Part shown: piece by piece, positions 22,750 to 41,509 of the stretch | How positions within the stretch are numbered: position 1 is the first letter of the stretch | Layout of the letters: each line of letters opens with the position of its first letter | Source: Chloroflexota bacterium | Lineage (GTDB): Bacteria > Chloroflexota > Dehalococcoidia > Lucifugimonadales > Lucifugimonadaceae | Reading direction: 5' to 3' | DNA length: 64,000 nt | Assembly (NCBI GenBank): GCA_002718415.1 | Contig: PBEM01000015.1 | Span: 1-64,000 of the forward strand | The notes under the pieces: generated by a model | Told to the model about the DNA's origin: nothing | Database searches by the model: none | What the model saw: only the letters and a program-made list of their open reading frames with translations | Translations under genes and position numbers: made by a program

Positions 22750-22799
22750 AAAATAATTCTAAATTTATAAGTATCAAATTTTAGATGCTTATAGGTTTG

Positions 22800-22838: not shown

Positions 22839-22886
22839 GTTTTAAAAACAGTAGAAATTATTCTAGAAGGTAATTAATAGAATCAT

Positions 22887-23876
22887 ATGGCACTATATAT
22901 CGGGAAAAGAGTATTATACGGTTTCATTGCTATATGGATAATTTCTATACTGTCTTTTATTATTATCCAACTCCCTCCTGGAGATTATGTAAGTTCTTAT
23001 ATTGCCAATTTAGCTGCTCAAGGATCATCTTTAGATCAAGCTGAAGCTGAAAACCTTAGAATATTTTACGGACTAGATAAACCTTGGCATATACAATATC
23101 TAAAATGGGCTAGCCGTATTGTTACAGGTGATTTAGGATATTCATTTGAATGGGAAAAACCAGTTATGTCTGTTATACAGGGCCGTATACTAACTACTGT
23201 TCTATTAGCTCTTTTTGCACTAGTTTTCACTTGGTTATTTGCCATTCCTATTGGTATTTATTCTGCTGTACATAAATATAGCATTGGAGATTATTTGGCG
23301 ACATTTCTTGGATTTTTGGGATTAGCTATACCTGATTTTTTAATAGCTCTAATAGCAATGTGGTTTGGATATTCTATATTTGGATGGAGTGTAGGTGGTC
23401 TTTTTTCTCCTGAGTTCGGGACTGCTCCTTGGTCAATTGCTAAATTTCTTGACCTGATGAAACATTTATGGGTTCCAGTAATAATACTAGGTACTGCTGG
23501 AATGGCTGCAATGATTAGAGTTGTTAGAGCAAATTTACTAGATGAATTATCTAAACCGTATGTAGTAACAGCACGAGCGAAAGGTATATCAGAATGGAAA
23601 TTAATAATGAAATATCCTGTTAGAATGGCATTAAATCCTGTTATAAGTATGTCTGCATATCTACTTCCATACCTAATTTCGGGAAGCGTGATTGTTTCAG
23701 TGGTACTTAGTTTACCTACTTTAGGTCCGACTTTATTAAAATCCTTATTGTCCCAAGATAGCTATTTAGCGGGAGGAATAATTTTTCTAATAGGTATATT
23801 TACTATATTAGGTACTTTGATTTCAGATTTACTACTCCTTTGGATAGATCCAAGAATAAAATTCGAGGCTAGATAA
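22887..23876 (+). CDS. Oligopeptide-type ABC transporter permease, DppB-like 2
   Basis: A 329-residue membrane protein with six helices. It has FIIIQLPPGDYVSSYI (27-42), DKPWHIQYLKWASRIVTGDLG (about 65-85) and the EAA loop YVVTARAKGISEWKLIMKYP. The latter has Pro in KYPVR where HAxRN is usual, a feature of the subgroup that partners long SBPs. ATG at 22887 is preceded by AGAAGGTAAT. The DppC-like gene begins two bases after its stop. Confidence 0.92.
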   Translation: MALYIGKRVLYGFIAIWIISILSFIIIQLPPGDYVSSYIANLAAQGSSLDQAEAENLRIFYGLDKPWHIQYLKWASRIVTGDLGYSFEWEKPVMSVIQGRILTTVLLALFALVFTWLFAIPIGIYSAVHKYSIGDYLATFLGFLGLAIPDFLIALIAMWFGYSIFGWSVGGLFSPEFGTAPWSIAKFLDLMKHLWVPVIILGTAGMAAMIRVVRANLLDELSKPYVVTARAKGISEWKLIMKYPVRMALNPVISMSAYLLPYLISGSVIVSVVLSLPTLGPTLLKSLLSQDSYLAGGIIFLIGIFTILGTLISDLLLLWIDPRIKFEAR

Positions 23877-23878
23877 AA

Positions 23879-25015
23879 TTGAGTTCTGAATCAAACATAG
23901 AGAAAGTAGATAATATTAATTCTGAAGAAAGAGTTAGTGTTGCTTCACAAGGACAGTTAATATGGTGGAGATTTAGAAAACATAAACTTGCAGTATTTTC
24001 CGCTATACTTCTACTATTATTGTATCTAACAACATTATTTGCTGAATTTTTTGCTACTTCTGATCCTCTTGAATCTGAAGCATTTCGAGGTCTAATACAA
24101 CCTCAACCAATTCATTTTTTTGATGAAGGTAAGTTAAGCCCTCATGTATGCGCAATGGAAGGTACCCGAGACCCCTATACATATAAAAAAACATATAAAC
24201 CTAATTGTGATAAAAAAACACCCGTAGAATTCTTTACTAAAGGTTATGAATATGAATGGTTAGGTTTAATTCCAATGGATAGACATTTAATCGGTGTACC
24301 TGAAGGATATTTGGCAGAAGAACACATATTTTTATTAGGAACTGATATTCAAGGAAGAGACATGTGGTCAAGAATATGGGTAGCATCAAGACTTTCATTA
24401 AGTATCGGATTAGTTGGAGTTACATTAACACTAATTTTTGGCATATCTTTAGGAGGTATCTCGGGCTTTTATGGTGGTTTTATAGATACGATTATACAAA
24501 GAATTATTGAAATTATAAGAGCAGTTCCGACTATACCTTTGTGGATGGCTTTGTCCGCTGCTATGCCTTTTAGTTGGTCTATTGTACAAATATATTTTTC
24601 AATCACATTAATAATTTCACTGTTCGCTTGGACCGATTTAGCAAGAGTAGTCAGAGGTAGATTTCTATCTCTTAGAGAAGAAGACTTTGTTACAGCAGCA
24701 GTTTTATCTGGTGCAAATGAAAGAAGAATAATTTTCAGACATGTAATGCCATCACTATATAGTCATATTATTGCTGCGGTGAGTCTTGCAATACCTTTGA
24801 TGATTATTAGTGAAACAGCCTTAAGTTTTCTTGGGTTAGGATTACAAGCGCCTGCAATAAGTTGGGGTACTTTATTACAAGGTACTCAAAATGTACAAAG
24901 TGTGGCTCTATACAAATGGTTGATGATTCCTGCTTTCCCTGTAGTAGGAAGTATTCTTTTATTTAATTTTCTTGGAGACGGATTAAGAGATGCTGCAGAT
25001 CCGTACAGTGACTAA
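23879..25015 (+). CDS. Oligopeptide-type ABC transporter permease, DppC-like 2, with long extracytoplasmic insert
   Basis: A 378-residue permease, about 90 residues longer than usual DppC. The extra length sits between the first helix (about 39-60) and the LGTDIQGRDMWSR motif (about 157-169): a hydrophilic loop with two Cys (HVCAMEG, KPNCDKK). The rest is standard: EAA loop FVTAAVLSGANERRIIFRHV and end block SETALSFLGLGLQAPAISWG. The start is TTG at 23879, three bases after the DppB stop. The insert would face the outside and could contact the large SBP 2 (inference). Confidence 0.92.
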   Translation: MSSESNIEKVDNINSEERVSVASQGQLIWWRFRKHKLAVFSAILLLLLYLTTLFAEFFATSDPLESEAFRGLIQPQPIHFFDEGKLSPHVCAMEGTRDPYTYKKTYKPNCDKKTPVEFFTKGYEYEWLGLIPMDRHLIGVPEGYLAEEHIFLLGTDIQGRDMWSRIWVASRLSLSIGLVGVTLTLIFGISLGGISGFYGGFIDTIIQRIIEIIRAVPTIPLWMALSAAMPFSWSIVQIYFSITLIISLFAWTDLARVVRGRFLSLREEDFVTAAVLSGANERRIIFRHVMPSLYSHIIAAVSLAIPLMIISETALSFLGLGLQAPAISWGTLLQGTQNVQSVALYKWLMIPAFPVVGSILLFNFLGDGLRDAADPYSD

Positions 25016-25024
25016 TAATTTAAT

Positions 25025-26056
25025 ATGACTAAAAAAAATACTAAAATAGAAAAACAAAAACCAATATTATCCGTAAATGGACTTAAAGTTCATTTCTTTA
25101 CAGATGAAGGTACAGTTAAAGCAGTAGAAGGGGCAAGCTTTGACGTTTTAGCTGGACGCACATTAGGAATAGTAGGAGAGAGTGGATGTGGTAAAAGTGT
25201 AGCAACAAGGTCATTATTAAGGTTGGTAGATAGCCCTGGAAAAATTGTAGATGGAGAAATTATTTATAGGGGTGACGCAAATAAAAAAGAAATAAATATT
25301 ACCTCTTTAAAAACATCAGGATCAGATATTAAATCGATTAGAGGTGGAGAAATTTCATTGATTTTTCAAGAACCTATGACATCTTTCAGTCCAGTACATA
25401 CCGTTGGTAATCAAATAATTGAGGCAATAAAACTACATAAGAAACTTAATAAGGATGATGCTAAAGGATTAACTTTAGATTGGTTTAAACGTGTTGGTAT
25501 GCCAGATCCAGAACAGAGAATGAACCAATATCCATGGCAATTAAGTGGGGGGCAAAGACAAAGAGCAATGATTGCAATGGCTTTATGTTGTGATCCAAAA
25601 ATAGTAATTGCTGATGAGCCCACTACAGCTTTAGACGTAACTACCCAAGCCCAAATACTCGATCTCCTAAAGGAACTTCAAGAAGAAAATGGAATGTCTA
25701 TCATTTTTATTACCCATGATTTAGGTGTAATAGCTGAAATATCTGATGATGTTTCAGTTATGTATCTAGGAAATATAGTAGAGAGTGCATCTGTAGATGA
25801 AATATTTCATTCTCCAAAACATCCATATACAACTGGTTTATTAAATTCCATTCCGTCCATTACCAATAAGAATAGAGAAAGATTGCCAACAATATCAGGT
25901 TCTATTCCTCATCCTCATAACAGACCAAGTGGATGTACTTTCAGAAATAGATGTCAAAATCCTTCAGATGATTGCAGAGAAGGGAAGATTGAAATGAAAC
26001 TTATAGAAGTTAGCCCAGGCCATTTTGTAGATCAATGCTGTATTAATTGTGGTTAA
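25025..26056 (+). CDS. Oligopeptide-type ABC transporter ATPase, DppD-like
   Basis: A 343-residue ATPase. Walker A GESGCGKS at 51-58, signature LSGGQRQRAMIAMAL near 175, Walker B VIADEPTTALDV, H-loop THDLGV. The C-terminal oligo_HPY region ends GCTFRNRCQNPSDDC and then VDQCCINCG, giving six or more Cys in the last 45 residues; the partner at 26069 has an almost identical tail. It probably serves its own permeases and, as the only such pair in the window, also the two ATPase-less systems. Confidence 0.95.
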   Translation: MTKKNTKIEKQKPILSVNGLKVHFFTDEGTVKAVEGASFDVLAGRTLGIVGESGCGKSVATRSLLRLVDSPGKIVDGEIIYRGDANKKEINITSLKTSGSDIKSIRGGEISLIFQEPMTSFSPVHTVGNQIIEAIKLHKKLNKDDAKGLTLDWFKRVGMPDPEQRMNQYPWQLSGGQRQRAMIAMALCCDPKIVIADEPTTALDVTTQAQILDLLKELQEENGMSIIFITHDLGVIAEISDDVSVMYLGNIVESASVDEIFHSPKHPYTTGLLNSIPSITNKNRERLPTISGSIPHPHNRPSGCTFRNRCQNPSDDCREGKIEMKLIEVSPGHFVDQCCINCG

Positions 26057-26068
26057 AAAAGGATAAGA

Positions 26069-27085
26069 ATGACTACTAAAAATAAAAAAGATGACTCTCC
26101 TATATTAGAAGTTACAAACTTAAAAAAATATTTCCCTATACAAAAAGGGATTTTTAAAAAAATAGTTGGGAATGTTCGTGCGGTCGATGGTGTAGATTTT
26201 AGTATAAATAAAGGAGAAACAGTTAGTCTGGTGGGAGAAAGTGGTTGTGGTAAAACTACTACAGCTAGATGTATTATGCGAGCACTAGATCCTACAAGTG
26301 GTGAAATAAAATTTAAAACCAAAAATAATGAAATCATAGATTTATCTAAATTATCCAAAGATGAAGTTAGGCCATATAGAGATGATATTCAAATGATCTT
26401 CCAAGATCCTTTTTCATCATTAAATCCTCGAATGACTCTTTTCGATATAGTAGGTGAGCCTCTCCTTGTTAATGGCATGAAAGCAAAAAAGGAAAGAGAA
26501 GAAAGAGTATCAGAAATAATGCATCAAGTAGGTTTAAGGCCAGAATATATGATGAGATTTCCACATGCTTTTAGCGGTGGGCAAAGACAAAGAATTGGTA
26601 TTGCAAGAGCATTAAGTATAAACCCTAGCCTAATCGTTGCAGATGAGCCTGTCTCCGCCTTGGATGTATCTGTTCAAGCCCAAGTATTGAATTTAATGAT
26701 GGATCTTCAAGATCAATTAAATTTAACATATTTGTTTGTTTCTCACGACTTGAGCGTAGTGAGCCAAATAAGTGATAGAGTAATTGTTATGTATGTAGGA
26801 AAAATCGTAGAAAGTGGTACTCCAAAACAAATCTTTGAATCACCTAAACATCCATACACTTCTGCCCTACTTAGCTCAGTTCCAAAAGCTGACCCAAGAT
26901 TGAGACAAGAAAGAATTGTGCTCAAAGGAGAAGTAGCAAACGCTGCAGATCCACCTTCTGGATGTACTTTCCGAACTAGGTGTCCAAATCCAACAGATGA
27001 CTGCAGGGATGGAAACATTGAAATGGGTCTAATTGAAGTAAGCCCTGGGCATTGGGTAGATCAATGCTGCGTCAATTGCGGCTAA
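26069..27085 (+). CDS. Oligopeptide-type ABC transporter ATPase, DppF-like
   Basis: A 338-residue ATPase, partner of the DppD-like protein 12 bp upstream. Walker A GESGCGKTT at 56-64, FQDPFSSLNPRMTL (Q-loop region typical of DppF/OppF), signature FSGGQRQRIGIARAL, Walker B VADEPVSALDVSVQAQ, SHDLSVV H-loop. Its Cys-rich C-terminal tail closely copies that of DppD (GCTFRTRCPNPTDDC ... DQCCVNCG), suggesting duplication or gene conversion. Last gene of the operon; it converges on the sulfatase gene with 20 bp between. Confidence 0.95.
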   Translation: MTTKNKKDDSPILEVTNLKKYFPIQKGIFKKIVGNVRAVDGVDFSINKGETVSLVGESGCGKTTTARCIMRALDPTSGEIKFKTKNNEIIDLSKLSKDEVRPYRDDIQMIFQDPFSSLNPRMTLFDIVGEPLLVNGMKAKKEREERVSEIMHQVGLRPEYMMRFPHAFSGGQRQRIGIARALSINPSLIVADEPVSALDVSVQAQVLNLMMDLQDQLNLTYLFVSHDLSVVSQISDRVIVMYVGKIVESGTPKQIFESPKHPYTSALLSSVPKADPRLRQERIVLKGEVANAADPPSGCTFRTRCPNPTDDCRDGNIEMGLIEVSPGHWVDQCCVNCG

Positions 27086-27105: not shown

Positions 27106-28602
27106 TCATCTAAATGTAGATGAATTCGTAGGGTTATCATCTTTAGGTCCTGAATGACTTAAACGCATGCCTCTTTGGTTACCAAAAGATCTGCCAGGAT
27201 TTGCATATTCAATATTAGGATTAGGATCATCCATCCCAACTAATTGGCCATTTTTTATCCAATTCAAATCATCTCCATAGAAATTTATTTTCATAGTCTC
27301 AGAAAGTTTTGAGATAATTTTTTTATATTTAATGTCACTATATAAATCGTACATCTCTTTTGGGTCATTATCTAAATCAAATAACTGAAATCTATTGCCC
27401 GCAGGATAATATATTAATTTATATCTCTCATCTCTAACCATTCTAGTGGCTCTTGCATCATCCCAGAGTTCACCGTAGATATAGTCCCGTTTTTTATCCC
27501 CTAACAAAGATAAACCTTCCACAGTGGATGGAATAGGAACTTCACACATTTCAGCTAAGGTAGGAAAAATGTCTGCTTGTACGGCTAATCTGTCATCTAT
27601 ACTATTTACAGTAATATTTTTTGTATTCTCTGGTGGTACTAAAATCATTGGGATTCTACAAGAATTTTCATAAAAAAGTCCTTTTGCATACAAGCCATGA
27701 TTTCCTAACATATCTCCGTGATCAGAAGTAAACATAACAATAGTATTATCAAAAATATTTTCTTCTCTTAATAAACCAATAACAAGTCTAATTTGGTGGT
27801 CCACATGTGTAGCTAAAGCATAAAAAGCTTGCCTAGCTGCCCTAATAGCATCTTCAGAATAAGTATTTCTACCATGCGGTCTAGCTTTAAGGGAAAAAGG
27901 AAGTTCTTTATGGTTTTCTGACCATTCTGAATAATAAGGCATATCTACATCAATACTTCTGTAGTAATCCATATAACTAGATAGAGGTGCTAAAGGAGGA
28001 TGTGGAGGACTAAAAGACATGTACCAAAAACCCGGCTTACGAGGATCTCTTCTAGCAATATATTTACATGTCTCTTTAACAGTCCAATTGATTTGATGTA
28101 AATGTTCAGGTAAATGCCAGGTTCTAGTAAGATAATCGTTATTTGACATCCCGTGTGACCACTCTTGTCCAGAATATCCTTCATCTTGTAAAAAAAGCTC
28201 GTAATCGTCTTTGTTCATTCCAAATTGATAACGTCCTTCTTCTAACAACATCACATCTTGAAATCCAATTCTGTCTCTTTGAGGATAAACATGCAATTTT
28301 CCTACACCATAAGATTGGTATCCATTTTCAGTAAACGTTTGAGCAATAGTTGGTAAATCGGGCATAGGCAAAGTTTCATTAAAGTTTCTATCTCCATGTG
28401 TCCTTGAACCAACACCTGTCATCATTTCTCTTCTTGCAGGTATGCATATAGGTGTAGTAGTGTACGCATTAGTAAATGCTATTCCATTACCAATCATTTG
28501 ATCTAGAGTCGGAGTTAATATAGATGGATGTCCTAATGCTCCTATTAATTCACCAAACCAATGGTCTACTGAGATTAATAAAACATTATTTTTTACAGAC
28601 AA
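27106..28602 (-). CDS. Sulfatase (arylsulfatase/choline-sulfatase family)
   Basis: A 498-residue sulfatase. The catalytic motif is CIPAR (Cys53-Arg57), so Cys53 would be converted to formylglycine by a generating enzyme not in this window. Metal-binding SVDHWF near 11-16 and MFTSDHGDMLGNHG near 290 are present; the usual N-terminal Asp-Asp pair appears as DH. No signal peptide, suggesting cytoplasmic action on an imported ester. C-terminal YKLIYYPAG region is typical. It lies directly upstream of, and divergent from, the uronate-dehydrogenase-like cluster, consistent with desulfation of a sugar before oxidation (inference). Confidence 0.9.
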   Translation of the reverse strand: MSVKNNVLLISVDHWFGELIGALGHPSILTPTLDQMIGNGIAFTNAYTTTPICIPARREMMTGVGSRTHGDRNFNETLPMPDLPTIAQTFTENGYQSYGVGKLHVYPQRDRIGFQDVMLLEEGRYQFGMNKDDYELFLQDEGYSGQEWSHGMSNNDYLTRTWHLPEHLHQINWTVKETCKYIARRDPRKPGFWYMSFSPPHPPLAPLSSYMDYYRSIDVDMPYYSEWSENHKELPFSLKARPHGRNTYSEDAIRAARQAFYALATHVDHQIRLVIGLLREENIFDNTIVMFTSDHGDMLGNHGLYAKGLFYENSCRIPMILVPPENTKNITVNSIDDRLAVQADIFPTLAEMCEVPIPSTVEGLSLLGDKKRDYIYGELWDDARATRMVRDERYKLIYYPAGNRFQLFDLDNDPKEMYDLYSDIKYKKIISKLSETMKINFYGDDLNWIKNGQLVGMDDPNPNIEYANPGRSFGNQRGMRLSHSGPKDDNPTNSSTFR

Positions 28603-28739: not shown

Positions 28740-29552
28740 ATGAAAGTGATGATTACCGGGATAGTAGGAAAAATAGGTACTATCGTTGCAGATCACATAC
28801 AAGATGATCACGAAGTACATGGAATAGATCTTAGAGAGTCAGATCGTTCAAATACAACAAAAATTGACTTAGCAGATTCTGCAGATGAACTTGCAAAACT
28901 TTTTGAAGGTACTGATGTAATCTTACATCTTGCAGCAGATAGAAGACATGAACCATGGATTGGTTGGGATGAGCTTATGAGACCTAACGTTATTGCAACG
29001 GCTAATGTCTATCAAGCTGCACATAAGGCTAATGTTAGAAGAGTAATATTTGCTAGCTCTATGCATGCTGTTGGTGGATATGAATTAATAGAACCATATA
29101 AATCAATTGTTAACGGTAATTATGATGGAATAGATAAAGATAAAGTAGATTTAGTAAAAGGTTTAAATCAAGATTCAAGACCTGATAGTGAATATTCTGC
29201 GAGTAAAGTATTTGGGGAATCTTTAGGAAGATACTTTGCAGAATTTGAAAATATGGAAGGATTAGCTATAAGAATAGGTACTGTTCATCCAGATAATAAA
29301 CCAGGAGCAGACCCAAGGTCTTGGGTTAGTTTTTTTAGCCAAAATGATATCGGTGGATATTTTAGATCTTGTATAGAAAAGAAAGACGTCAGCTACGATA
29401 TTTTATATGCAGCATCTAATAATGATTGGAAGGTTTACGATACTCCATATGCATTTAATTATTTAGATTTCCAACCATCTGATAATGCTGAAAATCACCG
29501 TGATAATCCAAGTGCACCAAATGATGCTCCAGGAACTATAGATTGGAAATAA
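28740..29552 (+). CDS. NAD-dependent epimerase/dehydrogenase, uronate-dehydrogenase-like (copy A)
   Basis: A 270-residue extended-SDR enzyme. Rossmann motif GIVGKIG at 7-13, DLADSADEL at 43-51, catalytic Tyr152/Lys156 in YSASK, Ser at 106-107. The length, the early VILHLAADRRHEPW block and the end SNNDWKVYDTPYAFNYLDF followed by DNAENHR resemble uronate dehydrogenase (Udh), which oxidises galacturonate or glucuronate to the aldarolactone with NAD+. It has a good AAGGA site. First gene of 28740-34205; copy B at 32308 shares most of its motifs. An epimerase role cannot be excluded. Confidence 0.85.
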   Translation: MKVMITGIVGKIGTIVADHIQDDHEVHGIDLRESDRSNTTKIDLADSADELAKLFEGTDVILHLAADRRHEPWIGWDELMRPNVIATANVYQAAHKANVRRVIFASSMHAVGGYELIEPYKSIVNGNYDGIDKDKVDLVKGLNQDSRPDSEYSASKVFGESLGRYFAEFENMEGLAIRIGTVHPDNKPGADPRSWVSFFSQNDIGGYFRSCIEKKDVSYDILYAASNNDWKVYDTPYAFNYLDFQPSDNAENHRDNPSAPNDAPGTIDWK

Positions 29553-29568
29553 TTTTTAGCTTCTAATC

Positions 29569-30555
29569 ATGGAGAAACAAATTATGCCCATTGTTGGATA
29601 TGGAGACTTTAAATATGAACGTGATGAATCATGGCCAATAATACCAGAAGGCTGGACACTTGGTAACGGATGGTCTGGTCCTCCTGAATTAGGAATTCCT
29701 ATAACATCCGGAAAGGGAGTATCAGATGTTGCAGTAGATTCTAATGATAGAGTTTACGTTTTCAACAGAGATGCTCATCCAGTTGTTGTTTTCGAAGCTG
29801 ATACCGGAAAATTTGTGACCTCTTGGGGTGAATATGAGTTTAAAGAAACTCATGGAATTTTTGTAGATTCCGATGATAATATTTGGACAACAGATAGACA
29901 AGAACATGTTGTAGTAAAACATACAAAACATGGTGAAAAATTACTCGAATTAGGTGTACGATCTTGGGCAAGTGCATCTGTAACTCCTTACGGTACTCAT
30001 CCAGAACATAACTTTCTTGGAGGACCTTTCAATATGCCTGGTGGAGTGACTATAGCTTCTACCGGCGCTATTTTTGTTGGAGATGGATATGGAAATCGTC
30101 AAGTCCACAGATTCTCCCCTAAAGGTGAATTCGAGCTATCATGGGGTATTTCAGGAACTGGAGAGGGTGAATTCTCGTTAGTTCACAATCTTGATATCGA
30201 TTCAAAAGATAGAGTTTATGTATGCGACAGACAAAACTGTAGGGTCCAAATTTTCGATTATGATGGAAATTACATAGATAGCTGGACTGATGTGCTTAAC
30301 CCTGGTGGTGTATATTGTGATAGAAATAATTTAGTCTATGTAGCAGAACAGGGCATACCTTCTGGAGCTGAACCAAATGGTGTATCTATTTTTACCGAAG
30401 AAGGAGAACTTGTTTCTAGATTTAGGGGAAGAGAAAATGGTCTTGTTCAACCACACGGACTTTCTACTGATTCTAAAGGAAATTTATATTTAGCAGAATT
30501 AGAATCACTTGATATCGGAAAAGATCATAGGATTTCAAAATGGAACAAAATTTAG
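29569..30555 (+). CDS. NHL-repeat propeller protein, amidating-lyase/lactonase-like (copy A)
   Basis: A 328-residue propeller resembling peptidyl-alpha-hydroxyglycine alpha-amidating-lyase-like proteins. NHL units include GVSDVAVDSNDRVYVFNRD, ETHGIFVDSDDNIWTTD and GVTIASTGAIFVGDGYGNRQ; several His in HGI and HNLD loops could bind metal, as in the lyase. No signal peptide. Either ATG at 29569 or 29584 may be the start. It is sixteen bases after copy-A dehydrogenase and closely related to 31322-32290. Given the context, hydrolysis of a sugar lactone is a reasonable guess, not shown by sequence. Confidence 0.8.
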   Translation: MEKQIMPIVGYGDFKYERDESWPIIPEGWTLGNGWSGPPELGIPITSGKGVSDVAVDSNDRVYVFNRDAHPVVVFEADTGKFVTSWGEYEFKETHGIFVDSDDNIWTTDRQEHVVVKHTKHGEKLLELGVRSWASASVTPYGTHPEHNFLGGPFNMPGGVTIASTGAIFVGDGYGNRQVHRFSPKGEFELSWGISGTGEGEFSLVHNLDIDSKDRVYVCDRQNCRVQIFDYDGNYIDSWTDVLNPGGVYCDRNNLVYVAEQGIPSGAEPNGVSIFTEEGELVSRFRGRENGLVQPHGLSTDSKGNLYLAELESLDIGKDHRISKWNKI

Positions 30556-30565
30556 GAGATAAATA

Positions 30566-31312
30566 ATGTCAGAAAAAATTCAAAATAAAATACTACAAAA
30601 AGCTAATAATAAACAAATTGCATTAGGTATTAGAGTATCTAGTTCTACTGAAGAGGTTATTGAAATAGCTGGAAGAATGGGATTAGATTTTGTATATTTA
30701 GATGCTCAACATTCACCATTCACTTTACCTGAGATAGAAAAATATTGCAGACTATCACAAAGTTTTGATCTAACTACAATGATTAGATTACCAGATGGGG
30801 AAAGAACAACTATTCTTAACTATCTTGACCGCGGAGCTAATGTTATCCAAATCCCTGATTTACAAACAGCTGAAGAAGCTAAAAAATACATTAAATATAC
30901 ATATTTTGGCCCAATAGGAATACGTAGTGCTACTAGTCTAAGAACTGCTATGCAAATACCTGAACCAGCTAATAGAAAAAATCTTTATGATTTTGTTAAT
31001 AAAAACACACTAATATTACCTCAGCTTGAAAGTATTACTGCTTTTAATAATCTTGACAGCATATTAAAAGTTGATGGAATAAATTTTTTCTCCGGAGGTC
31101 CTGAAGATATAGCTCAATCTATGGGTTTCCCTGGAGAACCGCAACATCCAGAAGTTTTAAAAGCATTTTCTAAAGCTTGTGAAAAAGTTAGATCATCAGG
31201 AAAGTTTATGATGGAAGACGTTATAGAAATGATAAGTGTAAATGATCTAATTATAAAAGAGGCAGGAGATTTATTAAAAAAGCATGGTAGAACACCTAAT
31301 TGGAGTTTATAA
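30566..31312 (+). CDS. HpcH/HpaI-family aldolase (2-keto-3-deoxy-sugar-acid aldolase-like)
   Basis: A 248-residue TIM-barrel class II aldolase, usual length. Catalytic blocks: His49 in LDAQHS (the family's E/DGEHAP position), Arg74 in MIRLPDGE, Glu in LPQLESI near 154 and Asp in GGPEDIAQSMG near 177. Enzymes of this family split 2-keto-3-deoxy acids to pyruvate plus an aldehyde (HpcH, GarL). Ribosome site AGGAG ten bases upstream. It sits at the centre of the mirrored cluster, where it would perform the last cleavage after an enolase-superfamily dehydratase. Confidence 0.88.
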   Translation: MSEKIQNKILQKANNKQIALGIRVSSSTEEVIEIAGRMGLDFVYLDAQHSPFTLPEIEKYCRLSQSFDLTTMIRLPDGERTTILNYLDRGANVIQIPDLQTAEEAKKYIKYTYFGPIGIRSATSLRTAMQIPEPANRKNLYDFVNKNTLILPQLESITAFNNLDSILKVDGINFFSGGPEDIAQSMGFPGEPQHPEVLKAFSKACEKVRSSGKFMMEDVIEMISVNDLIIKEAGDLLKKHGRTPNWSL

Positions 31313-31321
31313 AATATAAAA

Positions 31322-32290
31322 ATGACAGTTGTAGGATATGGAGATTATAGATATGAATTTGATGACTCATGGCCTAATATTCCAAAAGGTTGGACAATTG
31401 GTAACGGATGGTCTGGTCCTCCAGAATTAGGAATCCCTATAACTTCCGGAAAAGGTGTTTCTGATGTTTCAGCAGATTCTAGTGATAATATTTATGTTTT
31501 TAATAGAGACATACACCCTATAGTAATATTTGAAGCTGAATCTGGAAATTTTGTTAATTCTTGGGGAGAACATGAATTCAAAGAAACTCATGGAATATTC
31601 GTAGATTCTGAAGATAATGTTTGGACAACAGACAGGCAAGAACATGTTGTGGTAAAACATACGAAACATGGTGAAAAATTACTCGAACTAGGTATTAGAG
31701 GATGGGCTACAGCATCAGTCACCCCTTACGGTAGTAATCCTGAAAGAAAAGGACTTGGAGGTCCTTTTAATATGCCAGCTGGAGTAACTGTATCTTCAAC
31801 CGGAGCTATTTTTGTTGCTGATGGTTACGGGAATCGTCAAGTTCACAGGTTTTCTCCAACAGGAAATCTTGAAATTTCATGGGGAAATTCAGGTACAGGT
31901 AAAGGTGAATTTTCTTTAGTGCATAATTTGGATGTCGATTCTGGTGATAATGTTTACATATGTGATAGAGAAAACGATCGAATACAAATTTTTGATTACG
32001 ATGGTAATTACATAAATATGTGGGAAAATTTAAGTAGTCCCGGAAGCGTTTATTGTGATAGAGAAAACTTAGTTTATGTAGCAGAACAAGGCACCCCAAG
32101 AAGAAAGAAAAAAAATGGAGTATCTATCTATACTGAATCAGGTGAGATAATTTCACAATTTATGAGAAAAAGTGAAGAAAATACTCAACCACACGGTATA
32201 TGTCTTGATTCTAAAGGAAATATCTATTTGGCAGAGCTAGCATCGCCAATAGGAAACGATCAAAAAGTATCAAAATTTGTAAGAATTTAA
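31322..32290 (+). CDS. NHL-repeat propeller protein (copy B)
   Basis: A 322-residue paralog of 29569-30555, sharing long nearly identical stretches (NGWSGPPELGIPITSGKGVS, TDRQEHVVVKHTKHGEKLLE). The C-terminal third is less conserved, with a Lys-rich insertion (RRKKKNG) where copy A has SGAEPNG. It starts with MTVVGYGDYRYE, matching residue 6 onward of copy A. Copies A and B flank the aldolase. Retention of both suggests different substrates or a heteromeric role rather than dosage alone (inference). Confidence 0.8.
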   Translation: MTVVGYGDYRYEFDDSWPNIPKGWTIGNGWSGPPELGIPITSGKGVSDVSADSSDNIYVFNRDIHPIVIFEAESGNFVNSWGEHEFKETHGIFVDSEDNVWTTDRQEHVVVKHTKHGEKLLELGIRGWATASVTPYGSNPERKGLGGPFNMPAGVTVSSTGAIFVADGYGNRQVHRFSPTGNLEISWGNSGTGKGEFSLVHNLDVDSGDNVYICDRENDRIQIFDYDGNYINMWENLSSPGSVYCDRENLVYVAEQGTPRRKKKNGVSIYTESGEIISQFMRKSEENTQPHGICLDSKGNIYLAELASPIGNDQKVSKFVRI

Positions 32291-32307
32291 TATAAAAGGA
32301 AAACGAT

Positions 32308-33075
32308 ATGAAAATAATGATTACTGGAATAAATGGAGCAATAGGTAATGTAGTAGCTAATCTAATGAGTAAAGATCATGAAGTACATGGAATTGATGTA
32401 ATTAAATCAGACCGTCCAAATACGACATATATAGATCTTGCAGACTCTGTTGATGATGTATCAAAAGCATTCGAAGGTATGGATGCAGTACTTCACTTAG
32501 CAGCAGACCCAAGGCATGATCCTTGGATCGGATGGAAAGAATTAATGCGACCTAACATGATTGCCACGGCTAATGTTTATTCAGCTGCACACAAAACAGG
32601 TGTTAGAAGATTCATATTTGGTGGCTCAATGAGAGTCGTTGCAGGTTATGAATCAGATGAGCCATATGCATCTATAATAAATGGTAATTATGATGGGATT
32701 GATAAAAATAAAATTGAACTTATAAAAGGAATAGGACAAGATACTAGGCCTAATAATGAATATGCAACAAGTAAAATTTTTGGAGAAAACTTAGGTAGAT
32801 ATTTTCATGAATTCGAAGATATGGAAGTTTTATGTGTGCGAATAGGATCACTTAAACATGGATCTGATCGACCAGGGCACGATTCTAGATCTTGGGTAGC
32901 ATTTATGAGTTTAAGAGATGCAGCTAGCTATTTTAAATCTTGTATTGAAAAGAAAGATGTTGGGTATGATATTCTTTATGCTGCATCAGATAATGATTGG
33001 AAAATCTATGATACTCCTTATGCATATAAATATTTAAATTTTCAACCCGCCGATAATGCAGAAAATTATCGATGA
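32308..33075 (+). CDS. NAD-dependent epimerase/dehydrogenase, uronate-dehydrogenase-like (copy B)
   Basis: A 255-residue paralog of copy A. Rossmann GINGAIG at 7-13, Tyr152/Lys156 in YATSK, and the same end pattern SDNDWKIYDTPYAYKYLNF followed by DNAENYR. It lacks the Pro-rich tail of copy A. One difference near the active site: FGGSMRV where copy A has FASSMHA, which keeps only the second Ser and replaces His by Arg, so substrate preference may differ. AAAGGA ribosome site. The stop overlaps the next start (ATGA), coupling it to an enolase-superfamily gene. Confidence 0.85.
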   Translation: MKIMITGINGAIGNVVANLMSKDHEVHGIDVIKSDRPNTTYIDLADSVDDVSKAFEGMDAVLHLAADPRHDPWIGWKELMRPNMIATANVYSAAHKTGVRRFIFGGSMRVVAGYESDEPYASIINGNYDGIDKNKIELIKGIGQDTRPNNEYATSKIFGENLGRYFHEFEDMEVLCVRIGSLKHGSDRPGHDSRSWVAFMSLRDAASYFKSCIEKKDVGYDILYAASDNDWKIYDTPYAYKYLNFQPADNAENYR

Positions 33076-34205
33076 AAATAACAGATATAAAAATTAGTGA
33101 ATTTAGTATTTCTGATAATACTCCATTTTTTAAACTTAAAAAAGAAAATGGTTTTTGGGAAAAATATGACATAAAAAAATCTTTAGGAGCTATACATGTA
33201 ATGCATGTCTATACAGATGAAGGTATAGAAGGAATTTGTACTGTAGGAGATGCACGTTACACAACCATAACTGAAACCGCACTTACATATCTAAAATACT
33301 TAACCATCGGTGAAGACCCGACTAAAATAGAATATCTATTTGACATGCTTTCAAAAGCAACAAGGAACATATTCTTACCTCCAGGATGGTTTGGTACATT
33401 TGATAATTGTTTATGGGATATACAAGGGAAAATTAATTCTAAATCAGTAGCAGCACTTATTACGGAGAAACCTTCTGTAGTTAAATCTTATTACAATTAT
33501 CGCGGAAGAGGAAACGATATAAAACTTTCTATAGAAGATGCAAATTTAGCAATTGAAAAAGGGTTTACTATCTTAAAAGACCACTTCATTGGAAATGTAA
33601 AACAAAATACTAAATCTTTTGAATCAATAAGAAAATCAGTTGGAGATGAAATAATACTTCTACATGATGCAGCAGGATGTAGTTATAGTCTTCAAGATGC
33701 AATAGAGATAGGAAAAACATTAGATCTCATGAATTTTCGATGGTTTGAAGAACCATTTAACGACAGAAATTTAGGTGATTTAAAAAAATTAACTTCTAAA
33801 GTTAATATACCTATTTTAGCTTTAGAAACATTAATGAATGATTTTATTTTGATGAAAGAATGGGTAAAAGAAGGAGCTGTAAATTTAGTAAGAGCAAATG
33901 CTCGACACGGTACTACTGGTGTAGTTAGAATTGCTAGAGAATTGGAAAAAGTTGATATAAATATTGAACTAAATGGTCCAGGTGGATTATTTGGACATGT
34001 TCATTCTCAATTAGTATCAGCAATCCCAAACACATCATTCTATGAATATTTCCCTGATGGTTCCAGAGATGAATTAGGTAAAGAAATTGGATTACTCAAT
34101 CCACCTATACCTAAAAATGGCAATATAAATATTTCTAAAAAATATGGATGGGGTTATGAAATAGATTCAGATTATTTTAATAAAAAAAGAATTGGATTTT
34201 TTTAA
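33072..34205 (+). CDS. Enolase-superfamily enzyme 1 (mandelate racemase/sugar-acid dehydratase type)
   Basis: A 377-residue (beta/alpha)7beta-barrel enzyme with capping domain. Metal ligands are Asp in LLHDAAG, Glu in WFEEP and Glu in LALET. On strand 2 the base motif is Lys-Asp-His (ILKDHFIG) instead of Lys-x-Lys. RANARHGTTGVVRIA would supply the strand-6 Asp/His pair, altered to Asn/Arg-His. The superfamily abstracts a proton alpha to a carboxylate; most sugar-acid members dehydrate aldonates or aldarates. It is coupled by a 4-bp overlap to the copy-B dehydrogenase, so it likely works on the product of that step. Confidence 0.86.
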   Translation: MKITDIKISEFSISDNTPFFKLKKENGFWEKYDIKKSLGAIHVMHVYTDEGIEGICTVGDARYTTITETALTYLKYLTIGEDPTKIEYLFDMLSKATRNIFLPPGWFGTFDNCLWDIQGKINSKSVAALITEKPSVVKSYYNYRGRGNDIKLSIEDANLAIEKGFTILKDHFIGNVKQNTKSFESIRKSVGDEIILLHDAAGCSYSLQDAIEIGKTLDLMNFRWFEEPFNDRNLGDLKKLTSKVNIPILALETLMNDFILMKEWVKEGAVNLVRANARHGTTGVVRIARELEKVDINIELNGPGGLFGHVHSQLVSAIPNTSFYEYFPDGSRDELGKEIGLLNPPIPKNGNINISKKYGWGYEIDSDYFNKKRIGFF

Positions 34206-34214: not shown

Positions 34215-35387
34215 TTATTTAATTATTATTTCTTCCACTTTATACTTTTTTAATAATTCAAAATCATATTCGACACCCAAACCTGGACCTTCTGGAACTG
34301 TCACACAACCATCTTTATCTATGGAAGTTAAATTATCTTGATAACCGCATTTAAAATAATTAAATCTAGTTGATTCTAATTTTGGGTGGACTAAGCCCAA
34401 TTCATAAAAATTTGAATTCCTAATTGCCGCCATGCAATGTCTTTGTGCAGGACCACCTACATGAAGTTCTAAATCCATTCCATAACCTTCAGCAGCATGT
34501 GCTATTTTCATTACCCCGGTAATACCTCCATCATAATCAGGATCAGCTCGCCAAAAATCAGTTGCCTCAGCAGCTGCCATATCTGAATGTGCTTCAACCA
34601 AATGAACGTGCTCGCCTTGTAAAAGAGGTGTCTTCAACATTTTACGTAATTGACGATGAAAATAGTGAGACACACCACCATCTCTCATTGGGTCTTCATA
34701 CCAAAAAAAATTTTCTTCATCACAAGCCCTTCCTACAGCTAAAGCGTCGGCAAAAGTATCATATACACAGCAAGGATCAGTCATTAACGCCATTTTACCC
34801 CCTACCCGTCTACCTACCTCGTGAACTGTTTTTATTTCTTTATTTAAATCTACTTGAGCCCAAGAATGGATCTTGAATCCTTTATAACCTAATTCAAGAC
34901 ATTGTTCAGCAAAATCCCCATATGCTTCTGGCGAATCAAGACCACCCTTAGTTCTATCTCCATGAGCAGTACTTGCATAACATGGAAGTTTTTTCCTGTA
35001 TCCTCCTAATAATTGATAAATTGGAGCGTTAAAGTATTTCCCTGCAATATCCCAAAGAGTAACATCGATTGGACCAATACCCATACGATCATGCTTTCTC
35101 AAAATAGATTTTGCATTATTATAGATATATTCCCTCTCTAAAGCATTTTTTCCAATTAAGAATGGCCCCAAAATTTGAATTTGTTCGAGAACAGAAGGAG
35201 TACCAGTAATATATTCCCCTGTTATACCCTCATCTGTAAAAATCTGAATACTTAAAGGAGATGTATAAGTTAAACTACCAGGTTCATAAAATACACCTTG
35301 TCCAAAACTCACATCATAACCTATATCATTTAGCGGTAATCTAAATCTAGTTAATTTAATTTTTTTTATTACCGGTACATTATTCAT
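34215..35387 (-). CDS. Enolase-superfamily enzyme 2 (mandelate racemase type, KxH motif)
   Basis: A 390-residue member. Strand-2 motif FKIHSW (Lys-x-His), metal ligands Asp in LMTDPCC, Glu in FWYEDP and Glu in LQGEHVH; DYDGGITGVMKIA and LHVGGPAQRH line the rest of the pocket. KxH is seen in several acid-sugar dehydratase and racemase subgroups. It converges with enzyme 1 (nine bases between the stops) and is immediately followed upstream by an epimerase-like gene and enzyme 3 on the same strand, forming operon 37374-34215. Reaction not assignable. Confidence 0.87.
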   Translation of the reverse strand: MNNVPVIKKIKLTRFRLPLNDIGYDVSFGQGVFYEPGSLTYTSPLSIQIFTDEGITGEYITGTPSVLEQIQILGPFLIGKNALEREYIYNNAKSILRKHDRMGIGPIDVTLWDIAGKYFNAPIYQLLGGYRKKLPCYASTAHGDRTKGGLDSPEAYGDFAEQCLELGYKGFKIHSWAQVDLNKEIKTVHEVGRRVGGKMALMTDPCCVYDTFADALAVGRACDEENFFWYEDPMRDGGVSHYFHRQLRKMLKTPLLQGEHVHLVEAHSDMAAAEATDFWRADPDYDGGITGVMKIAHAAEGYGMDLELHVGGPAQRHCMAAIRNSNFYELGLVHPKLESTRFNYFKCGYQDNLTSIDKDGCVTVPEGPGLGVEYDFELLKKYKVEEIIIK

Positions 35388-36158
35388 TTAATTACCAATT
35401 TTTTTATGGGTTTCAGGTCTCCAATTAAGTATTCGCTTTGCTGTAGATAAATTATGAGATTGTTGATTTTCATCTCCTGCTATAAATATTGGTTGGAACC
35501 ATCCTTTACCAGTATTTAATCTTTCTAAACCATTTATATAGGCAGATGCTAAATCTTCTTCATCAGTAACATATAAACGTTTATAATGATTAATTTTCGG
35601 TCTCGGTATTTTTCGTTCTTCAATCCATTCAGCTCTGTTCCTAGGACCTGTAATTCTAAACGCAAAAATATTCATATCAAACCATTTGGAAAAATATTTG
35701 CAAATTTTCTCTCCAAATCCTTTTGACAAACCATATGCAGATGGCGTATCTAGAGGAATATCATATTCATTACTAAAATAATCTCTATCTCGGAAATGCA
35801 CACTCATTGTGCTTGTATAAATCCCTGATAATAAACCCTCCCCCTGTGATAACCATAAAAAGTTATGTAAACCTAAACAATTTATTTCATAATTATTTTT
35901 AATTACTGTTAAATCTTGATCTGTTACACTTCCACCTTGTGGGCTTTTCATTACTACCCAAATAAATGAATCTATATCTATAATTGCTTTTTTAATATCA
36001 TCAGGGTTCAATACTGATCCTTGGATAAAATCTACATCATGTTCTGGAGTTGATAGATCCATTACCCTTACATCGTATCCTCTTTCCAATAAGTATGGAG
36101 TTATAAAAGAACCTACCTTCCCTGATCCACCTATGAGTAAAATTTTTTTATTTTTCAA
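35388..36158 (-). CDS. NAD-dependent epimerase/dehydratase family protein (copy C)
   Basis: A 256-residue extended SDR. Rossmann GGSGKVG at 10-16, catalytic Tyr/Lys in SAYGLSKGFGE. It is much more diverged from copies A and B than those are from each other, but its length is the same and the end (NLSTAKRILNWRPETH) is standard for sugar-nucleotide epimerases and uronate dehydrogenase relatives. It lies between two enolase-superfamily genes, touching the downstream one without a gap. A sugar or sugar-acid oxidoreductase role fits the neighbourhood. Confidence 0.82.
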   Translation of the reverse strand: MKNKKILLIGGSGKVGSFITPYLLERGYDVRVMDLSTPEHDVDFIQGSVLNPDDIKKAIIDIDSFIWVVMKSPQGGSVTDQDLTVIKNNYEINCLGLHNFLWLSQGEGLLSGIYTSTMSVHFRDRDYFSNEYDIPLDTPSAYGLSKGFGEKICKYFSKWFDMNIFAFRITGPRNRAEWIEERKIPRPKINHYKRLYVTDEEDLASAYINGLERLNTGKGWFQPIFIAGDENQQSHNLSTAKRILNWRPETHKKIGN

Positions 36159-36183
36159 TTTTCTATAACCTCTAAATTATTAA

Positions 36184-37374
36184 TCAAACAGAATATCCAA
36201 CAGAACCATCATTTCTTATGGGTATATTTTCTAATTTTCTTTCATTAGGAAATTTTTCACCATCCTTCAATTTTTTCGTAGATTCATTTATTAACCTTTC
36301 AAAATCAACATTCATTCCTATTCCTGGGTAATCTGGTAACATCAAATACCCTCCTTCTCTCTTCCATAAACTTCCAAAAATTTTATTGTCATCTGATTCA
36401 TCCGCAAGAGTATATTCTTGAGTTAAAAAATTAGGTATTGCAGCATCTATACATGATGCTGCTGCAGTAGTTACAGGAGTAACAAAATTATGAGTAACTA
36501 ATGCTGAATGATAAGATTCGGCTATTGCTGCTATCTTTTTTACTTGTGTAATACCTCCAGCAAGGCCTAAATCAGGTCTCGCATATTGGCTACCTCCAGA
36601 TTCAAATAATTCCCGGAATTCCCATATATTATGCATTCTTTCTCCATTTGCTAAAGGTATTTCAGTTCTAGAACCTATAGTCGATTGACTTGTAATAGAA
36701 TCAATTTGAACTGGATCTTCAATAAAAAGTGGATGAAATTCAAATAATTCTTTTGCGAGTGCTATAGAAAGCATAGGGGTCAATTTTCTATGAATTTCCA
36801 AAATTATGTCCACATCTAAACCTGCACCTTCTCTTAGTGCCTTTACGTTTTTCTTTGTTTCAGATATCAACTTAGGTAAAGTCATCGATTCGTAACCATC
36901 AGGTAAAGGATCAATCTTTAATGCAGTAAAACCATCTTCACTAGCGGCTTTGGCTGCATTATAAATATTATCTTGAAGATTATTCCCATAATGAGTACCT
37001 AAAAGTAAATGTACTCTTATTTTATTTCTAGTAGGACCACCTAATAATTTCCAAACTGGAACTTCATAGAACTTACCCTTAAGATCCCACAGAGCAATAT
37101 CAACTGCACTTATAGCACCACTTAAAATTGATCCCCTGAACGGCCCCATACGATATAAATATTGCCAATGATGTTCGATTTGAAAAGGATTTTTCCCGAG
37201 TAAATAATCTCTGAATGTCTGTAAAACAGCATGGGTAGCTTTTGGATAAGCCCAACATGATGATGCACCAATACCCTTCAAACCATTAGATAATGTAATT
37301 ACCACATAGTGAACTGAGTTAAAAATTATACTTTCAACTTCAACTATTTTTAAATTTTCTTCTGAATTTTTCAT
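36184..37374 (-). CDS. Enolase-superfamily enzyme 3 (galactonate-dehydratase-like)
   Basis: A 396-residue member resembling D-galactonate dehydratase (DgoD): LKIDPLPDG on strand 2 (Lys-x-Asp), FIEDP, NGERMHN, then PDLGLAGGITQVKKIA and the catalytic His in VTHNFVTPVT. The first metal-ligand block reads LEIHRK, with Glu where DgoD has Asp (VDFHGR); His is kept. It would dehydrate an aldonic acid to a 2-keto-3-deoxy acid. First gene of the minus-strand operon, divergent from the XRE regulator with 142 bp between, making it a likely target of that regulator. Confidence 0.87.
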   Translation of the reverse strand: MKNSEENLKIVEVESIIFNSVHYVVITLSNGLKGIGASSCWAYPKATHAVLQTFRDYLLGKNPFQIEHHWQYLYRMGPFRGSILSGAISAVDIALWDLKGKFYEVPVWKLLGGPTRNKIRVHLLLGTHYGNNLQDNIYNAAKAASEDGFTALKIDPLPDGYESMTLPKLISETKKNVKALREGAGLDVDIILEIHRKLTPMLSIALAKELFEFHPLFIEDPVQIDSITSQSTIGSRTEIPLANGERMHNIWEFRELFESGGSQYARPDLGLAGGITQVKKIAAIAESYHSALVTHNFVTPVTTAAASCIDAAIPNFLTQEYTLADESDDNKIFGSLWKREGGYLMLPDYPGIGMNVDFERLINESTKKLKDGEKFPNERKLENIPIRNDGSVGYSV

Positions 37375-38505: not shown

Positions 38506-40464
38506 ATGATTGCAAATTTTAATTATAGATTTAGCAGACTCCTAGTACTTATGATTGGCTTGGTGGCATTTGTCGCTATTGCTGCTTGTACAACAACGGA
38601 GACTGTTGAAGTTATAAAAGAAGTTCCTGTAGAAAAGATCGTAACCAAGGAAGTTCCTGTAGAAGTTGAAAAAATTATCGAAAAGGAAGTCCCCGTAGAA
38701 GTTGAAAAGATCGTAACTAAGGAAGTTCCTGTAGAAGTAATAAAAGAAGTAGCAGTAGAAAAAATTAAGGAAATATCTGTACCAAAAGAAGTTTTGGTAG
38801 TTGCAACAGCAACTCCTGATCCAAATGCAGGAAAAGTAGTTTCCTCTGGTGAAGTTACTGCAGCTATTTCAAATGTTTACTTTATGAACAGTAGCCCAAG
38901 ATATTGTCCAGCATGTTCAGTTCAAGCCAGAACTGGAGCAACAGAATTTCTACTAACTGCTGTTAGAGATGAAAATGGTCAAATAGGAATAGCTCCTCAG
39001 ATTGCTGAATCATGGACTCAATCTGAAGATGGAACTTCATGGACTGAGTTTAAATTACGTGAGGGTATACAGTTCCACGGTGGTTACGGAGAAATGACTG
39101 CTAAAGATGTAGCTTTTTCTTGGAATGATGCTAATCCAAATATAGTTGCAGATTCAGTACATGACACTGGTGGTGCTATAGGAACAATACTAAATGAAGT
39201 AGAAATAATAGATGATTATACAGTTAGATTTAATTGGAAAATCTATAACGGATCTACGATGTTGAATTATGTTACTAATTTCGTTGAAGGAATTGGAATT
39301 CTTAGTAAGGATTTCTTTGATGAAGTTGGAGCCGATGCTATGAAAGAACAATTGATCGGTACAGGTCCATTTGAAATGGAAAAATGGGTACAACACGATG
39401 GAGCTTACTTAAATGCTGTTCCTGATCACTGGAGAAAAACTGCTGGTGTAGCAAAAATAAACATTCTAGAAGTTCCGGAAGCTGCAACCAGAAAAGCTAT
39501 GCTTCAAACTGGACAAGCTCATATTGTAGGTGATTTACCTCTAAAAGACTGGACTCCTCTAGTAGCAGCTGGCTTCAAAGTAGCTCAGGAAAAGAAACTT
39601 GGTGATACTGCATTTACTATGGCAGGAAATTACTGGGAAACAGACAATAGTGATGGTGAAAAATTCACTAGTTCTGAAGCAGGAGATGCGTTGTACTTAC
39701 CAGTAATGGAAGATAAACCTTGGATAGGACATCCTGATGATCCTGAAAAGTATGAAAAAGCTAAAAAAGTTAGAACTGCTATGGCAATGTCTATTGATAG
39801 AAGTGCTTTAGTAGATGTAATTACAGCTGGTCTGGGTACAGTTAGCCATATGCCAGGAATTCAAAATTCTGATCCACTATTCAAATCTGAATGGGAGATT
39901 CCATATGATGTAGCTGGAGCAAAAGCTTTAATGGAAGAAGCTGGATATGCTGATGGTTTTGATTTGGAATGGTGGGGAGGACCTAGTGTAGCTACCGAAG
40001 ATACAGTACACGAAGCTATCGCTGCAATGTGGTTGAAAGATTTAAATATCAATTCAACTATAGATCAACAAAACTATTCTTCATTTAGGCCTACTCTTGT
40101 AAACAGAACTAATACTAAATTATTATTTAGTGGAGGTGATGCTCATGTTCCTGTTACTTGGCCTAGAGATTTGAATGCATCTTCTATCTCAAGACCTGGA
40201 GGATATAATAGGGCTATTGAAATCCCTATGTTCAGAGATACTTACAATAAAATGGCCGTAGAGTTAGATGAAGATAAACTCAAAGGTTATGTTGAAGAAT
40301 ACTATGACTGGAATAGAGATAATCTTGTCTGGGTAGGTGTTTATCAACAACCTCAGGCTGCTTTATATAATCCAGGGTTAATAGACTCTTGGGATATGGT
40401 ACCTGAAGGTAAGGGTGTATTAGGAATGATGAATAGCCTAGAAAATATTAAGCTGAAAGAATGA
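38506..40464 (+). CDS. Oligopeptide-type (family 5) ABC transporter substrate-binding lipoprotein 3
   Basis: A 652-residue SBP_bac_5 lipoprotein related to SBP 1 (both have GIQFHGG/GVEFHGG, EEMTAKDVAF-like and GTGPF/L blocks). Lipobox AIAAC, Cys28; stalk residues 33-95 contain four EVPVE units, three of them spaced 12 residues apart. C-terminus ends VPEGKGVLGMMNSLENI, matching the AWPIPPQMCIGG region of SBP 1 in position. ATG at 38506 with TAGGAT in front. It heads an operon with DppB- and DppC-like permeases and an enolase-superfamily enzyme, pointing to a sugar-acid or similar ligand rather than peptides (inference). Confidence 0.92.
   Translation: MIANFNYRFSRLLVLMIGLVAFVAIAACTTTETVEVIKEVPVEKIVTKEVPVEVEKIIEKEVPVEVEKIVTKEVPVEVIKEVAVEKIKEISVPKEVLVVATATPDPNAGKVVSSGEVTAAISNVYFMNSSPRYCPACSVQARTGATEFLLTAVRDENGQIGIAPQIAESWTQSEDGTSWTEFKLREGIQFHGGYGEMTAKDVAFSWNDANPNIVADSVHDTGGAIGTILNEVEIIDDYTVRFNWKIYNGSTMLNYVTNFVEGIGILSKDFFDEVGADAMKEQLIGTGPFEMEKWVQHDGAYLNAVPDHWRKTAGVAKINILEVPEAATRKAMLQTGQAHIVGDLPLKDWTPLVAAGFKVAQEKKLGDTAFTMAGNYWETDNSDGEKFTSSEAGDALYLPVMEDKPWIGHPDDPEKYEKAKKVRTAMAMSIDRSALVDVITAGLGTVSHMPGIQNSDPLFKSEWEIPYDVAGAKALMEEAGYADGFDLEWWGGPSVATEDTVHEAIAAMWLKDLNINSTIDQQNYSSFRPTLVNRTNTKLLFSGGDAHVPVTWPRDLNASSISRPGGYNRAIEIPMFRDTYNKMAVELDEDKLKGYVEEYYDWNRDNLVWVGVYQQPQAALYNPGLIDSWDMVPEGKGVLGMMNSLENIKLKE
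38620..38760 (+). repeat. 36-bp imperfect repeat in the stalk of SBP 3
   Basis: The DNA encoding EVPVEVEKIIEK / EVPVEVEKIVTK repeats with a 36-bp period (units starting near 38650, 38686 and 38722), preceded by a shorter unit. It encodes the flexible Val/Glu/Lys spacer between the lipid anchor and binding domain. Confidence 0.75.
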
Positions 40465-40503
40465 AACAATCTGTGATTACTTGTTAAATTCCTATAAGTG
40501 ATT

Positions 40504-40556: not shown

Positions 40557-40568
40557 ATTTTATATATA

Positions 40569-41507: not shown

Positions 41508-41509
41508 AA

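Follow-up and report, generated by a model that had tools for sequence, protein, structure and literature searches.

Here we present an analysis of a six-gene cluster in a 64-kb stretch of DNA (hereafter the window), which lies on one contig (PBEM01000015.1) of the 1.06-Mb, 15-contig, 74%-complete genome of a Chloroflexota bacterium of the family Lucifugimonadaceae. The cluster encodes two dehydrogenases of the short-chain dehydrogenase/reductase (SDR) family (dehydrogenases A and B), two NHL-repeat propellers (NHL A and NHL B), an HpcH/HpaI aldolase and an enolase-superfamily protein (EN1). We put at about 0.5 the probability that these genes form one operon that degrades an acidic compound derived from sugar, possibly sulfated, by an oxidative, non-phosphorylative route, and in which NHL A and NHL B would be zinc lyases of the type of the PAL (peptidyl-alpha-hydroxyglycine amidating lyase) domain of PAM. 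The two propellers are PAL-like and probably lyases rather than new lactonases, because the zinc-binding and catalytic residues of PAL are kept in them. A first-pass annotation of the sequence had seen here a new oxidative sugar-acid route; the sugar-acid operon holds (SDRs like uronate dehydrogenase (UDH), HpaI aldolase and enolase-superfamily gene), but its novelty does not, such a route having already been proposed for SAR202 group I.

Fold and conserved residues of the NHL proteins

Matches to NHL repeats are numerous, and the PAL domain of PAM aligns in one full-length match, residues 71–311 with 561–801 of rat PAM. The profile of the second blade (19–49 on 570–600) sets His95 on rat PAM 585 and, because the alignment offset is 490, His296 falls on 786; we take the zinc ligands of rat PAL to be 585, 690 and 786. 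The first-pass annotation had proposed structure prediction of the NHL metal sites as a check. In the AlphaFold model of the NHL protein (pLDDT 88.6), the equivalent inner strands of three blades (2, 4 and 6) begin with His95, His206 and His296, respectively, and blades 3 and 5 have Pro at roughly the corresponding position. The three histidines are thus a candidate zinc site. They are identical in 74 of 74 homologues, as are Arg67, Tyr174, Asp220, Arg221 and Arg225. Tyr174, Arg221 and Arg67 match PAL Tyr654, Arg706 and Arg533, respectively, by motif and spacing, and the position of Arg221 is Asp in a Mesorhizobium homologue. Arg706 is an active-site residue of rat PAL, and Arg703 and Tyr651 form the catalytic dyad of the human enzyme (PMC10303134).

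The closest enzyme structure is PAL (3fvz), with a Foldseek TM (template modelling score) of 0.74 and the best TMq among the matches listed; it aligns with the model at a VIA Z of 34.6 over 277 residues, with 27% identity. An ordinary NHL protein of the window (9512–10558) is without equivalents of His95, His206 and Tyr174. An N-terminal signal peptide is not apparent by eye in the NHL proteins. RefSeq gives bacterial homologues the PAL-family name, so the family is already described by name. Hormone-type peptide amidation is unlikely because no copper monooxygenase partner was found: PF03712 scored above cut-off in none of the 76 genomes of the window's own family, and in none of 14 control genomes either. 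An identity as ScyF was rejected, the NCBIfam scores being weak (98 bits against a cut-off of 350).

Organization of the probable operon

The six genes and their immediate neighbours are as follows.

27106–28602, minus strand: sulfatase with CxPxR motif, divergent from the operon (Pfam/NCBIfam)
28740–29552, plus strand: dehydrogenase A, SDR of uronate dehydrogenase/Azf type (open reading frame (ORF), NCBIfam and PDB match)
29569–30555, plus strand: NHL A, PAL-like six-bladed propeller (ORF, homology, AlphaFold model)
30566–31312, plus strand: HpcH/HpaI aldolase, class II, pyruvate-releasing (ORF, Pfam/NCBIfam)
31322–32290, plus strand: NHL B, PAL-like propeller sharing the candidate catalytic residues of NHL A (ORF, homology)
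32308–33075, plus strand: dehydrogenase B, diverged paralogue of dehydrogenase A (ORF, homology)
33072–34205, plus strand: EN1, enolase-superfamily (MR/MLE) protein (ORF, Pfam/NCBIfam)
34215–37374, minus strand: convergent second sugar-acid set, EN2, DH-C (distant SDR) and EN3 (galactonate-dehydratase-like)

The order of the six genes and the 4-bp overlap are as the first-pass annotation had described them, with every ORF at its coordinates on the plus strand. The intergenic gaps are, in order, 16, 10, 9 and 17 bp, and dehydrogenase B and EN1 share an ATGA overlap. Given this tight spacing on one strand and the overlap, the six genes are likely co-transcribed as an operon that reads away from the divergent sulfatase. 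Both enzyme types are duplicated, as had been noted: NHL A and NHL B are 72% identical and dehydrogenases A and B 68% identical, which makes each pair true paralogues. The mirror order that had also been remarked on is present in the sequence of gene types. It is, however, unremarkable by itself, because 2 of the 30 possible orders (about 7%) of two copies each of two types and one aldolase are palindromic around the aldolase. We looked for inverted repeats of at least 40 nt at the cluster and found none; the DNA similarity is direct and limited to the genes and their start regions. With direct similarity only and all genes on one strand, inverted duplication is rejected as the source of the order.

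The duplications appear to be old. In a genome of the same genus (G410), an ABC ATPase (73% identity), the sulfatase (79%) and dehydrogenase A (86%) occur in the same order and are followed by unrelated genes. That locus lacks NHL, aldolase, dehydrogenase B and EN1, and an NHL orthologue with about 70% identity to NHL A stands alone on another contig. Dehydrogenase B branches outside the pair formed by dehydrogenase A and its G410 counterpart (FastTree), so the dehydrogenase duplication predates the species split; a recent local duplication is rejected, A being closer to the G410 gene (86%) than to B (68%). The trees suggest that NHL A and NHL B are old duplicates as well. In genera g7 and g228 the dehydrogenase homologues, at about 50% identity, have different neighbours, and the top homologue sets of NHL and dehydrogenase sit apart, so that the NHL–dehydrogenase pair, whose conservation the first-pass annotation had suggested searching for, is not a conserved module.

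Dehydrogenases, aldolase and EN1

Both dehydrogenases belong to the epimerase-type SDRs. Their nearest NCBIfam model is Azf (NF041293, NAD-dependent glucose-6-phosphate dehydrogenase), which they match at 129 and 144 bits against a curated cut-off of 400 (for dehydrogenase A, E 2e-37, likewise below cut-off), and their nearest PDB match is uronate dehydrogenase, in agreement with the resemblance proposed earlier. In the alignment to 3rft and among 33 homologues, UDH S111, Y136, K140 and R174 correspond to S107, Y152, K156 and R193 of dehydrogenase A, and both dehydrogenases keep the SDR Tyr/Lys and the equivalent of Arg174, which we take to be the carboxylate-binding residue. Among the presumed substrate residues of UDH (Ser75, Asn112 and His113), Ser75 is replaced by Arg or Pro and Asn112 by Met in both dehydrogenases; the His113 equivalent is kept in A and is Arg in B. 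Dehydrogenase B has Gly in place of Ser106 (Ser in 32/33 homologues) and Arg in place of His109 (His in 31/33); this Arg at the His113 equivalent is unique among the 33.

The aldolase keeps His49, Arg74, Glu155 and Asp181, that is, the catalytic His and Arg and the metal ligands Glu and Asp. It scores below the NCBIfam equivalog cut-offs, and the residue beside the catalytic His, which is Glu in 10 of 11 homologues, is Gln48 here. In EN1 the three metal ligands (Asp, Glu and Glu) and the Lys-x-His motif are present, and EN2, which is transcribed towards it, has the full set, including the His and Asp of the His–Asp dyad. Active-site changes had been claimed for both duplicated types. They are found in dehydrogenase B and in the enolase-superfamily gene but not in NHL A and NHL B, which have identical PAL-type residues.

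Neighbourhoods of NHL relatives

A close NHL homologue is present in 60 of the 76 genomes of the family. NHL trees contain three old paralogue clades, which co-occur as arrays. Ten of these arrays (L056, L064, L067, L069, L071, L072, L073, L088, L150 and L151) include an MFS transporter and a TIM barrel resembling xylose isomerase, usually together with an enolase-superfamily gene. Eight (L150, L151, L073, L064, L067, L069, L071 and L072) are conserved between genera within a single SAR202-type family and carry either an HpaI aldolase or a malate synthase. At five loci of genus g5, the HpaI aldolase is directly upstream of the NHL array on the same strand, and an enolase-superfamily gene is present; in genus g8, an HpaI aldolase is near the array. 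The window's aldolase belongs to a different branch from the g5 array aldolases, so the link between NHL proteins and HpaI aldolases arose at least twice. The same place is taken by a 4-carboxy-4-hydroxy-2-oxoadipate aldolase on a Bradyrhizobium plasmid and by a distant HpcH/HpaI-family protein in a Chloroflexi metagenome-assembled genome (L048). On plasmids of Sulfitobacter pontiacus (L170:3712–5768) and Paracoccus seriniphilus (L171:3727–5765), the PAL-like gene and an amidase gene share 4 bp within a TRAP-transporter operon, an arrangement that fits a lyase releasing an amide, followed by hydrolysis of the amide.

Glyoxylate and malate synthase

Malate synthase consumes glyoxylate, and its gene (PF01274) recurs near NHL genes. 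It lies beside the NHL array in eight genomes of genera g1 and g2 (G201, G409, G410, G435, G437, G439, G440 and G441), about 3 kb from NHL in G014 and, in a genome of another family (L089:8046–10781, G276:C101), 78 bp downstream of the PAL-like gene on the same strand. With about one malate synthase per 1.5–2.5 Mb, we estimate that two independent placements by chance are unlikely. These malate synthases score 279–301 bits, about half of the curated malate synthase A cut-off of 594, and are therefore divergent. A full-length isocitrate lyase occurs only in G440, which is contaminated; the other matches, probably PEP-mutase-like relatives, span about 100 of 526 positions. Isocitrate lyase matches being only partial outside the contaminated genome, glyoxylate must come from elsewhere. 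In G440 (6% contaminated), a typical malate synthase adjoins the full-length isocitrate lyase (G440:C49:2759–5142), probably on a contaminant contig. PAL releases glyoxylate (PMC6529398).

Proposed pathway and alternatives

We infer the metal, the reaction, the substrate and the order of steps as follows. Oxidation of a hemiacetal by the dehydrogenases would yield a lactone or acid, EN1 would remove an alpha-proton and the HpaI aldolase would split off pyruvate. NHL A and NHL B would act in the cytosol with a zinc ion bound by the three histidines, Tyr as the base and Arg residues gripping the carboxylate. Their substrate would be an alpha-hydroxy carboxylate (a hemiaminal, hemiacetal or hemiketal), whose C–N or C–O bond they would cleave to give glyoxylate or an opened 2-oxo acid.

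Several findings weigh against this pathway. His206 was matched to rat 690 by strand equivalence in blade 4, with no residue-by-residue alignment, and the literature searched holds no characterised enzyme of the bacterial PAL-like family. In EN1, Asn stands in place of the catalytic His of the His–Asp dyad and the dyad Asp is absent, so its step is uncertain; because EN1 and dehydrogenase B are both altered at active-site residues, their two steps are the least certain. The six-gene cluster itself is not conserved among relatives. No amidase lies in the window, and malate synthase was found neither there nor in the rest of its 74%-complete genome. In g1/g2, the malate synthase is convergent with NHL, so that these cases represent one inherited arrangement and not co-transcription. 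Finally, non-enzyme NHL domains (TRIM/Thin) equal PAL in fold similarity, being top or tied matches, and because they score equally well the fold alone cannot part an enzyme from a scaffold. NHL A and NHL B might thus be non-catalytic scaffolds or metal-binding assembly factors that tie the pathway enzymes together, TRIM/Thin-type propellers being binding domains. We consider this improbable: the PAL active-site residues (three His, Tyr and Arg) show no variation among 74 homologues, and the ordinary NHL protein of the window is without three of the candidate residues.

The earlier idea of an undescribed lactonase or lyase family fares differently in its parts: the PAL residues favour a lyase, the family already has a PAL-like name, and positive evidence for a lactonase is missing. 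As lactonases, NHL A and NHL B would open an aldonolactone or aldarolactone from the dehydrogenases, like the SMP-30/gluconolactonase propellers. SGL-family propeller lactonases do exist, the NHL genes adjoin UDH-like dehydrogenases, and the weak whole-protein Pfam SGL scores (26.4 and 32.9 bits) reach the cut-off of 26.3, although no single stretch passes. PAL is nevertheless a much closer structure than the propeller lactonase-type Drp35 (Z 25.9, 11% identity), the invariant residues are those of PAL, and the dehydrogenase–NHL pair is not conserved, so that we regard a lactonase as quite improbable. Alternatively, though this is unlikely, the two propellers could use PAL-type C–O chemistry to open the ring of a 2-keto-3-deoxy sugar acid in its cyclic hemiketal form (C2 with OH, ring O and COO−) and so feed the open chain to the aldolase encoded between them. 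The bond is of the same type as in the PAL substrate (an alpha-hydroxy carboxylate), and the neighbourhood of a same-strand HpaI aldolase recurs. Such rings, however, open spontaneously and may need no enzyme, we know of no precedent for a hemiketal-opening enzyme of this sort, and the malate synthase and amidase neighbours would be left unexplained. A chance gathering of genes with no dedicated pathway would be in keeping with the separate loci of dehydrogenase A and NHL in the sister genome and with the numerous aldolase, enolase-superfamily and SDR paralogues of the lineage (PMC6946804, PMC10444878). The tight one-strand spacing with its 4-bp overlap indicates co-transcription, and NHL–aldolase neighbourhoods recur elsewhere in the family; we therefore hold chance to be very improbable.

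If the propellers are PAL-type zinc lyases, an enzyme class of animal hormone maturation gains a bacterial metabolic role, and many family members now carry an untested name. PAL-type zinc propellers are, to our knowledge, known as enzymes only from peptide-hormone amidation. The sugar-acid metabolism proposed for SAR202, a lineage abundant in the ocean whose expanded paralogues have no assigned substrate, would also gain a missing step, and it would become clear why half of the genomes of the family retain a malate synthase without an isocitrate lyase. More tentatively, and as a possibility that we would still call doubtful, the PAL-type zinc propellers of SAR202 group I may be glyoxylate-releasing or hemiketal-opening catabolic lyases, working in multi-paralogue arrays with pyruvate aldolases and with malate synthase without isocitrate lyase, and would then form an undescribed branch of dissolved organic matter breakdown.

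Flanking genes

The window holds six enolase-superfamily genes; together with the sulfatase, this content fits, in our view, SAR202 group I (PMC6946804, PMC10444878). EN3 closely resembles galactonate dehydratase, scoring 253 bits where the cut-off is 311. An amidohydrolase at 63035–63859 (PF04909), which we assign to COG3618, is a possible lactonase because COG3618 amidohydrolases have already been placed in the proposed SAR202 sugar-acid pathways (PMC10444878). Three family-5-like solute-binding protein/permease sets (16616–27085 and 38506–42367) flank the sugar-acid genes, so that sugar acids or oligosaccharides may be the cargo of these oligopeptide-type ABC importers. A 536-residue protein (43470–45080), possibly a divergent glycoside hydrolase, matches the GH127 middle domain only below threshold (20.7 bits, cut-off 24.2). 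The ordinary NHL protein (ScyF-like, 160 bits; minus strand) is encoded within 9512–13084, downstream of two large proteins (10524–11945 and 11951–13084), which we judge by eye to be of DUF1800/DUF1501 types.

Comparison with known systems

A non-phosphorylative catabolism of sugar acids, based on paralogues of enolase-superfamily enzymes, aldolases and dehydrogenases, has already been proposed for SAR202 group I (PMC10444878). Those pathways share with the operon the logic of an enolase-superfamily enzyme, an HpaI-type aldolase (COG3836) and an NAD dehydrogenase, but use COG1028 SDRs where epimerase-type UDH-like SDRs are found here; the main text of that study makes no mention of propellers, glyoxylate or malate synthase. 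The dehydrogenases share with uronate dehydrogenase (3rft, 3ay3) and Azf the SDR fold, the Tyr–Lys pair and the Arg174 and Ser111 equivalents; they differ in the change of Asn112 to Met, the loss of Ser75, scores far below the Azf cut-off and, in dehydrogenase B, the loss of His113. The aldolase resembles YfaU (2-keto-3-deoxy-L-rhamnonate aldolase) and HpaI in its catalytic His and Arg and its metal ligands Glu and Asp, and departs from them in the Gln that replaces the conserved Glu beside the catalytic His.

Bacterial PAL-like homologues named in RefSeq are 30–36% identical to the NHL proteins over 92–100% of their length and keep His95, His206, His296, Arg67 and Tyr174, but their neighbours are an ectoine operon or a 4-carboxy-4-hydroxy-2-oxoadipate aldolase and, in the more distant Sulfitobacter and Paracoccus, the amidase. 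The methylguanidine lyase MdgL carries out similar chemistry and is stated to have no sequence homology to PAL (PMC12508155). NHL A and NHL B differ from the PAL domain of PAM (3fvz/3fw0) in being about 27% identical to it and in being cytosolic bacterial proteins of a sugar-acid operon with no peptide substrate in sight; they share with it the six-bladed NHL propeller, aligned over its whole length, His at the zinc-ligand positions and the active-site Tyr and Arg.

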